Shown here piece after piece: positions 13,249 through 59,369 of a DNA stretch of 64,000 bases. The notes under the pieces were generated by a model that saw only the letters and a program-made list of their open reading frames with translations, was not told the origin of the DNA and did no database searches. A program made the translations under genes and the position numbers. The DNA comes from Nanobdellota archaeon (GTDB lineage Archaea; Nanobdellota; Nanobdellia; Woesearchaeales; WJKV01), in assembly GCA_023133595.1 (NCBI GenBank), contig JAGLWF010000004.1, positions 42,917 to 106,916 of the forward strand, in the 5' to 3' direction. Numbering within the stretch: the stretch's first letter is position 1; every line of letters starts with the position of its first letter.

Positions 13249-13352
13249 GTATGGGCATAGCACCAAGCGTAGCCTTTGACTAAACGCACCAATAATATAG
13301 AATCGTTTTTATGAGCAATATTATACTCGTGCAAAGCGTGCTATGCACATAC
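13249..13352 (+). mobile_element. MITE-like palindromic element, copy 1 (104 bp)
   Basis: TIR GTATGGGCATAGCAC/GTGCTATGCACATAC; 8-bp duplication GGAAATAA at 13241-13248 and 13353-13360. Confidence 0.85.
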
Positions 13353-16532: not shown

Positions 16533-16636
16533 ATATATGCATAGCACCAAGCGTAGCCTTGCAATAAACAGTCCAGTTTACTAGACTCGGCTTCTAAATC
16601 GTATTTTTGATCTAGCAAAGCGTGCTATGCGTGTAC
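16533..16636 (+). mobile_element. MITE-like palindromic element, copy 2 (104 bp)
   Basis: ATATATGCATAGCAC...GTGCTATGCGTGTAC; flanks AACAGCAA (16525-16532) and AACAGCAG (16637-16644), 7/8. Confidence 0.85.
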
Positions 16637-55312: not shown

Positions 55313-56152
55313 GTGATAGACATCGATTTGGCAAAAATCAAGCAAAAAATCAGCACAGAACTGAAGATCCAGGGAAAGTCTTCCCAAACAATCCGGATGT
55401 ACTGTTTGTTCAATGTAAAATTTCTAGAATTTGTGAAAAAAGACCCAAAAGTCATGACAGAGGATGATATCAAAGGATATCTCGCTTATCTGATTTCAGA
55501 CAAAGGATATGATCCAAGCTCAGTCTCATTAGCCAGATCAGCTCTCAGATTCTACTATGATGATCTTTTAGGTAAAAATCTTACATTAAGTATCAAAACA
55601 CCAAAAAAGCAACGCAAAATCCCAGAAATCCCTAGCAAAGAAGAGATCAAACAACTTCTGGAGTCAGCAGGTACCTTGAGGGACAAGCTGTTGATCGAGT
55701 TCATGTACAGCTCGGGACTGCGAGTAGCAGAGTGCGCCTCACTCAAGATCTCAGACCTTGATTTGAAGGAGAAGATCGGATTGCTCAAAAGAGGTAAGGG
55801 CGCCAAAGACCGCTTTTTCATCCTCTCTAACAAACTTATAGAAGATCTCGGCCAATACCTGGAAGAGTGCAAGGAAAGCTCGAAATACGTGTTTCCAGGC
55901 CGTACAGCTGCTATATCCACGAGAAGGATCCAGGAGATTGTCCGTCAAACAGGAAAAACAGCAGGCATCAAGAAAAAGGTCTACTGCCATCTGCTGAGAC
56001 ACGCGTTCGCGACACATCTCCTCGAAGCAGGCACAGACATTAGACTTATACAGGAGCTTTTAGGACACGAAAATCTTCAAACAACACAACTTTATACAAA
56101 GATCAGCACAAAACAGCTCAAGCAAGTGAAGAGTCCTTTGGATGAGCTATAA
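55313..56152 (+). CDS. xerA: XerA-like tyrosine recombinase
   Basis: SSGLRVAECASLKISDLD; GKGAKDRF; CHLLRHAFATHLLEAGTDIRLIQELLGHENLQTTQLYTKI; GTG start. Confidence 0.92.
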   Translation: MIDIDLAKIKQKISTELKIQGKSSQTIRMYCLFNVKFLEFVKKDPKVMTEDDIKGYLAYLISDKGYDPSSVSLARSALRFYYDDLLGKNLTLSIKTPKKQRKIPEIPSKEEIKQLLESAGTLRDKLLIEFMYSSGLRVAECASLKISDLDLKEKIGLLKRGKGAKDRFFILSNKLIEDLGQYLEECKESSKYVFPGRTAAISTRRIQEIVRQTGKTAGIKKKVYCHLLRHAFATHLLEAGTDIRLIQELLGHENLQTTQLYTKISTKQLKQVKSPLDEL

Positions 56153-58631: not shown

Positions 58632-59081
58632 TTATCTAAGTAGTCGCTCACACCTGAGCAGTACTTCTTTTTCAGCTATTGCTCGTTCTTCTGGAAGTAA
58701 GCCGTGTGTCATTTTCATCCCTTCTTCAATGCATTTTTCATATTCTCCTTCAAGCACTTCTGGTTCTGACGGTTCAGAAACAGGAACCCGGGATGGTTCC
58801 GATGCTGTTAAAGATTGGCATAGTTCTGCTGAGAATACATCTACATTTGTTCCCCAACTTGGAGGGCATCCTGGAACACTTGGCATGCCAAATACTGCCT
58901 TTCCCCCTCCTTCGGTTGTTATAACTATAACTGTTCCATAGCCATTGACATCATGAACTTCTATATTTTTAATAGCTTTCTCTAGCTTATCAATTCCTTC
59001 TATATTTACCGCACAGCCGCTTAATATCATTAAACCTAAAACCAATACACCAAAAAAAAGCATCATTAAATATTTTTTCAT
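58632..59081 (-). CDS. Small lipoprotein
   Basis: LVLGLMILSGCAV lipobox. Confidence 0.65.
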   Translation of the reverse strand: MKKYLMMLFFGVLVLGLMILSGCAVNIEGIDKLEKAIKNIEVHDVNGYGTVIVITTEGGGKAVFGMPSVPGCPPSWGTNVDVFSAELCQSLTASEPSRVPVSEPSEPEVLEGEYEKCIEEGMKMTHGLLPEERAIAEKEVLLRCERLLR

Positions 59082-59140
59082 CAGATCACCTCGTTTGTGT
59101 TACTGTAGAAAGAACGTCTATAAAAATATTTCTATTTTTT

Positions 59141-59355
59141 GTATGTGCATAGCCATTGCTGCCAAGTGTAGCTTTCTGACTTTTTGTGCAAGATACATAG
59201 ACTCGGCTTCCAAAGCAGAAAACAATGCTAGCGAAACGCAGCAATGGCCCAAATATGCATAGCACGCTACGTTAGCTCATTAAATCTTATCATTAAACCG
59301 AGTCTATGTTACTTGATCAATTACTATAAGACTATGCTAGGTGCTATGCATATAC
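59141..59355. mobile_element. MITE-like palindromic element, dimeric copy (215 bp)
   Basis: Ends GTATGTGCATAGC/GCTATGCATATAC; 8-bp duplication TATTTTTT at 59133-59140 and 59356-59363; two inverted half-units. Confidence 0.85.
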
Positions 59356-59369
59356 TATTTTTTAAGAAA

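Follow-up and report, generated by a model that had tools for sequence, protein, structure and literature searches.

A dimeric miniature inverted-repeat element with a conserved hairpin module beside promoters of a Nanobdellota archaeon

Related mobile elements and the structure of the window dimer

Modular half-units that occur as monomers, dimers and nested forms are known from the BOX elements of Streptococcus pneumoniae and from BIME/REP arrays, and the hairpin element described here has the same modularity. The likeness meant here is one of modularity, and we know of no report of BOX or REP with 8-bp duplications at promoters. Hairpins of free sequence, in which conserved extrahelical bases or bulges mark one strand, are found in integron attC sites and at the ends of IS200/IS605 elements. 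Unlike the hairpin element, attC and IS200/IS605 insertions come without 8–9-bp duplications, and inspection by eye found no attC core sites.

Mobile elements that choose promoters are also known. In the available portion of a survey of the prokaryotic Mutator superfamily, its members are described with 8–9-bp direct repeats, inverted repeats of 18–39 bp and a terminal C (PMC3942029). The same portion states that TnGBS/ISLre2 (p-MULT 3) and part of ISKra4 (p-MULT 4) insert 15–17 bp upstream of the sigmaA −35 box and that ISKra4-type elements, where their repeats are near-perfect, are bordered by a promoter on each side; for archaeal ISH6, a promoter-region preference through AT-rich targets is only suggested (PMC3942029). 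The elements studied here share with TnGBS/ISLre2 and ISKra4 a fixed distance upstream of promoters, repeats of 8–9 bp and, mostly, a terminal C. Unlike these bacterial elements, they are placed next to the BRE on its upstream side, at 14 bp from the TATA box of an archaeal promoter, they encode no transposase, and they carry a hairpin module that is absent from that portion of the description (PMC3942029). The yeast LTR retrotransposon Ty3 also integrates at a fixed promoter position, just upstream of Pol III starts, where TBP and the TFIIB-like Brf1 (TFIIIB) place its integrase (PMC8632968). The present case concerns small DNA elements instead, for which an analogous contact with TBP/TFB is proposed. 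Like other prokaryotic MITEs, among them Correia elements and the SM families of Sulfolobus, these elements are short, non-coding and intergenic, with terminal inverted repeats, duplications and tens of copies, whereas neither a fixed promoter distance nor an order-wide covarying hairpin module appears in the available part of the description of those families (PMC10969869).

The DNA analyzed is a stretch of 64,000 nt from a Nanobdellota archaeon (GCA_023133595.1, contig JAGLWF010000004.1, positions 42,917–106,916 of the forward strand), which we call the window; positions given without a contig are those of the window. The genome to which it belongs (G000) is a draft of 1.37 Mb in 38 contigs that is 92% complete. 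A dimeric MITE of 215 bp, composed of an L unit and an R unit, occupies positions 59141–59355 on the plus strand. As an initial annotation of this DNA had proposed, the element is surrounded by an 8-bp target site duplication, with identical copies of TATTTTTT at 59133–59140 and 59356–59363. Its 13-bp terminal inverted repeats, GTATGTGCATAGC on the plus strand (59141–59153) and GCTATGCATATAC on the minus strand (59343–59355), are complementary at 12 of 13 positions.

Each half of the element also forms a stem of its own. In the L unit, GCCATTGCTGC pairs with GCAGCAATGGC (59152–59162 with 59238–59248) at 11 of 11 positions, and in the R unit 59253–59265 pairs with 59341–59353 at 13 of 13. The two half-units of opposite orientation noted previously correspond to an L hairpin unit on the plus strand (59154–59246; P1 arms CATTGCTGC and GCAGCAATG) and an R hairpin unit on the minus strand (59257–59349; P1 arms GCATAGCAC and GTGCTATGC). 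P1 encloses a conserved span of 75 nt in the former and a span of 75 nt in the latter. In the L unit, the 5′ GNA box reads GTGTAGC and comprises P2, GNA and P3 (59166–59172, plus strand); the 3′ box on the same strand is GCGAAAC (59231–59237). The structure of the window dimer is far above chance level. An additional pairing between ACATAGACTCGG (59195–59206) and CCGAGTCTATGT (59298–59309) had been suggested. These segments do lie opposite each other, but this is because the two inverted units contain an identical internal motif, and they do not constitute a distinct conserved stem.

Copies in the genome and their position at promoters

A genome-wide search for monomers and dimers, which the initial annotation had recommended, was carried out on G000. 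The whole-element search gave 61 matches, and pattern searches for the repeats added further copies. The resulting table holds 50 elements, representing at least 50 copies: 26 R monomers (104–106 bp), 14 L-R dimers (212–224 bp), four R elements with a nested L unit and six other forms. Two of the R monomers, each of 104 bp and on the plus strand, are within the window at 13249–13352 (G000:C33:56165-56268; duplication GGAAATAA) and 16533–16636 (G000:C33:59449-59552; duplication AACAGCAA/AACAGCAG).

Target site duplications were scored over 8 bp at the element boundaries, with a slip of up to 3 allowed, and flanks taken from different elements served as the control. Duplications matching at 7 or more of 8 bp were found for 28 of the 50 elements versus 1.9% of mismatched flank pairs (binomial probability ∼3 × 10−35). 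Eight of the 14 dimers have such duplications, and dimers are therefore mobile as units. Among the features that define a MITE, terminal inverted repeats, duplications of fixed length and a multicopy state without coding capacity are present, and at 104–224 bp the elements are too short to hold a transposase gene. The earlier reading of the locus as a dimeric MITE is borne out by the duplications, the inverted repeats and the many monomeric, dimeric and nested copies. The window copy is a dimer that belongs to a MITE family for which no description was found in the literature searched.

Many copies in G000 are positioned relative to promoters with single-base precision. Flanks were read outward from the element edges, and matches to TTTATATA at 7 or more of 8 positions were counted as TATA boxes. 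In 24 of 100 flanks, the start of a TATA box is exactly 14 bp away from the edge, versus 0.16 expected per offset as judged from the mean of offsets 25–189. The Poisson tail for this excess is ∼5 × 10−39 even if the expectation is set at 0.25. TATA counts at neighboring offsets are low, leaving a peak of one base at 14. This distance equals the 8-bp duplication plus a 6-bp BRE, and the bases between the duplication and the TATA box usually include AA (AAGG, AACA, AAGA), as expected for a BRE. A weight matrix places a TATA box at offset 12–16 on at least one side in 33 of 49 elements; at two control offsets, the corresponding numbers are 1 and 2. As this matrix was trained on the same sites, it is the consensus count that tests the pattern independently.

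Of 36 flanks that have a TATA box at 13–15, 34 lead into an open frame, versus 33 of 59 flanks without one, and the distance from TATA box to start codon in G000 flanks peaks at 30. A distance of ∼30 is that of leaderless archaeal transcripts. The window element follows the same pattern: the TATA box TTTTTATA (59119–59126, minus strand) starts exactly 14 bp from its edge and serves a lipoprotein-like open reading frame of 149 amino acids without a Pfam match (58632–59081, minus strand).

This pattern could in principle be generated after insertion rather than by it. If elements entered AT-rich DNA at random and then served as upstream activators or insulators, copies elsewhere could have been lost by selection. 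Archaeal upstream regulators can bind just upstream of the BRE, and the third of the elements that lack a TATA box at 12–16 would fit such a history. However, a single-base peak at 14 beside unrelated genes, with many duplications still intact, would be hard to create by sorting, and elements beside promoters occur in both orientations (23:16 in G000). We therefore regard selection after insertion as unlikely, and targeted insertion upstream of the BRE as the preferred reading. The placement is not universal. In G083, 9 of 15 elements have promoters at offsets 10–21, and in G162 none of 12 elements is near a promoter. Promoter proximity is thus a trait of the integration machinery of a lineage and not of the hairpin unit. 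A literature search of partial coverage returned no account of elements that insert at a fixed distance from archaeal TATA boxes. Such insertions mark promoters in uncultivated DPANN-type archaea, for which promoter maps are missing.

Several individual copies in G000 have additional characteristics. One R element (L033, G000:C12:50899-51096) is interrupted by an unrelated palindromic insertion with repeated GCGGTTTAG and GCCGCAA motifs, which may represent a second small repeat family in this genome. A nested R[L] element (L041, G000:C38:44227-44425) has a perfect duplication, GTGCTTTG. The apparent 3′ end of a tRNA gene directly adjoins it in the left flank, and in the opposite flank a TATA box starts at offset 14. 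The interval between C12:98200 and C12:100956 was considered as an autonomous element and rejected, as it consists of two separate degraded copies with ordinary genes between them. Three contigs end inside copies (C9:1-100, C25:1-110 and C27:30-160), and therefore some copies, possibly including an autonomous one, may be missing from the assembly.

A hairpin module conserved in shape across the order

In the hairpin unit, a P1 stem of at least 9 bp and free sequence is followed on the 5′ side by a one-sided 3-nt bulge, either CAA or CTA; P2, an internal loop of the GNA/GNA type and P3 come next. The inner helices are only 2 bp each, GC/GC or GT/AC for P2 and GC/GC, GT/AC or AC/GT for P3. The interior past P3 spans ∼55 nt and contains a motif resembling ACTCGGTTT. 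A sequence-only model recovered relatives in eight other genomes of the order, whose stems differ yet pair and whose inner boxes are common to all. A structured covariance model matched 28 of the 353 genomes of this order, in a patchy distribution and often in multiple copies, and a phylum sample of 371 genomes contained no positive genome outside this same order. Neither this order-wide spread nor the fixed-distance targeting of promoters was part of the initial annotation.

The P1 arms of 172 units are of 74 distinct kinds, and in 161 units they pair with no more than one non-Watson–Crick position. The span is 72–77 nt in 166 units, and the GNA pattern is present on the 5′ side in 152 and on the 3′ side in 127. 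The module represents a conserved structure of nucleic acid that Rfam 15 does not contain; it has more than 70 stem variants, and its shape rather than its sequence is kept. An exact-pattern genome scan produced two matches. One, in a Woesearchaeota contig that matches G001, is a true relative; the other, in a Patescibacteria contig, is without GNA boxes and was taken as chance. The exact-pattern search gave no match in viral contigs, and a match of the whole dimer in G008 comprises a single 28-bp end and was likewise regarded as chance.

The initial annotation had pointed to a compensatory change in one stem of the window element, and to covariation among copies as the means to evaluate it. 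The support for compensatory change is strong. In an alignment of 52 units from nine genomes, 96.4% of stem cells are paired versus 11–46% in slid controls. The outcome that the annotation had named as refuting, a lack of significant covariation, did not arise. Both sides have changed in 178 cells, and all nine P1 pairs include double changes. In 111 further units, 97.6% of cells are paired, a value that leans toward the model because this alignment was fitted to it; slid controls over both alignments give 10–47%. Such covariation can alternatively arise from co-evolution with a transposase or from correction of the hairpin.

It had also been proposed that the hairpin is selected as DNA or RNA. 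Retention of the structure is confirmed, and the RNA half of this proposal fares poorly. A structured non-coding RNA family, be it riboswitch-like, terminator-like or a processed small RNA whose shape is selected in the transcript, would account for the strong covariation in P1, P2 and P3 and for the conserved bulge and GNA/GNA loop, and, when folded as RNA, the window element exceeds shuffled sequences in stability (z −4.9). RNA under selection is expected to traverse and retain G-U pairs. However, only 8 of 671 paired cells (∼1%) in the 52-unit alignment are G-U, despite the 178 doubly changed cells and many transitions between G-C and A-U. Furthermore, an Rfam search of the window at the gathering threshold and of seven loci at E ≤ 0.5 reported tRNA only and no match to the element. 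The elements lie upstream of the transcripts of neighboring promoters and not within them, and the 8–9-bp duplications denote insertion of DNA. We also considered, and rejected, an internal RNA fold conserved inside a single genome, since it amounts to no more than the terminal stem and a few inner pairs. An RNA family is, in our judgment, quite unlikely. The near absence of G-U pairs therefore favors constraint or correction at the level of DNA, which, judging from sequence patterns, might act through co-evolution with a transposase, through a hairpin or cruciform, or through template switching.

A simpler possibility is an ordinary MITE in which stem covariation reflects the turnover of terminal repeats as different transposases are used, with the interior inherited without function. 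Terminal repeats always pair and differ between transposon families, and the stem families found here are mostly genome-specific. The difficulty is that the 2-bp inner helices, the bulge, the GNA boxes and the 72- to 77-nt span are kept where the outer repeats differ completely, and that a single genome can have more than one stem family, as is the case for G000 (L and R), G001 and G162. For these reasons we find this explanation rather doubtful and prefer a MITE built on a conserved module.

Dimers and outer repeats in other genomes bear on this point. G127 and G162 contain inverted dimers whose units are separated by 20–24 nt, and G154 contains one in which the gap is 15 nt. The G127 dimers reside within longer repeats, GGCTCTGTCCCGAAT, and have 9-bp duplications (CTTCAAGCC, GATTTAATC). 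Single units are located inside a different longer repeat with a 9-bp duplication in G192 (GGATCATGC) and inside other longer repeats with 9-bp duplications in G111 (GTGTAATCG, CGCATAACC), and G154 has a further outer repeat family. One and the same module is thus carried by several inverted-repeat families.

Candidate enzymes and a model for mobility

Profile searches of the draft G000 genome with PF00872, PF01609 (DDE_Tnp_1), PF13610 and NF033572 (ISKra4) gave no match. PF00872 (IS256) had only a weak match, to a G111 protein that is better matched by PF13610, and NF033572 was absent from the 20 genomes searched. No transposase flanks 47 inverted-repeat sites of G127 in the stretches examined, and the draft genomes searched contained no autonomous relative with matching ends. 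An IS6-type source (PF13610, DDE_Tnp_IS240) was rejected: such proteins occur only in G111, G148, G168 and G259, and neither a hairpin unit nor a GGCTCTGT repeat is near the genes inspected there. In G127, a pair of inverted repeats 1.9 kb apart (C57) was evaluated as an autonomous element and has ordinary genes inside.

The elements nevertheless share several attributes with p-MULT transposons. Direct repeats are 8–9 bp long (9 bp in other genomes), the distance upstream of promoters is fixed, and the terminal C is mostly present (GTATGT..ACATAC, GGCTCTG..CAGAGCC); the inverted repeats are 13–15 bp plus the stem, versus 18–39 bp in p-MULT. By analogy, the mobilizing enzyme would be a DDE transposase, possibly of the Mutator superfamily. 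As searches with PF00872 and NF033572 revealed no Mutator-like transposase, we do not class the family as a member of that superfamily.

The window element is very probably a dimeric, non-autonomous transposon that is built on a conserved hairpin module, moved in trans and placed upstream of BRE and TATA box. In this model, a DDE transposase would bind the element ends in trans and excise the element, which would then be joined into a staggered 8-bp cut to generate the observed duplication. The cut in G000 would be made at one fixed position, given that the 8-bp target is observed directly upstream of the 6-bp BRE and TATA box. The likeliest explanation would be either guidance by promoter-bound TBP/TFB or a transposase that reads the BRE/TATA DNA itself. 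Insertion upstream of the BRE leaves both gene and core promoter unharmed. Because dimers recur in other genomes, they probably represent both ends of a longer ancestor from which the genes were deleted. Retention of the paired stem could be explained if transposition makes use of hairpin or cruciform DNA or entails its correction.

The surprising parts are the structured module conserved across an order and the placement directly upstream of the BRE, and the behavior, by analogy, resembles that of promoter-targeting Mutator-like elements. If the model is true, single-base targeting upstream of an archaeal BRE and TATA box would be the archaeal counterpart of that known for Mutator-like elements of bacteria and for Ty3 of yeast. 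A bolder version, to which we give limited credence, holds that these elements form a mobile class that spans the archaeal order, is defined by the single-strand hairpin module and not by terminal repeats, and uses a transposase steered by promoter-bound TBP/TFB to sites upstream of the BRE; such a class would be an archaeal equivalent of Ty3 among DNA transposons.

Other genes and repeats were noted during this analysis. A tyrosine recombinase gene (Phage_integrase and SAM-like N-terminal domain) is located in the window at 55313–56152, 3 kb from the element. Its product looks like archaeal XerA, and 8-bp duplications are not expected from such an enzyme. The IS6-like transposases of G111 exist in two copies with similar downstream DNA (L215/L220 on G111:C12 and L216/L224 on G111:C3), and the intact protein has an N-terminal zinc-ribbon-like stretch. 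G127 carries a second inverted-repeat family, GGCTCTGTCCTAAAT, that forms hairpin dimers of ∼245–260 bp (for example L211, L212, L213 and L203), and whose outer repeat differs at two bases from GGCTCTGTCCCGAAT of the same genome.
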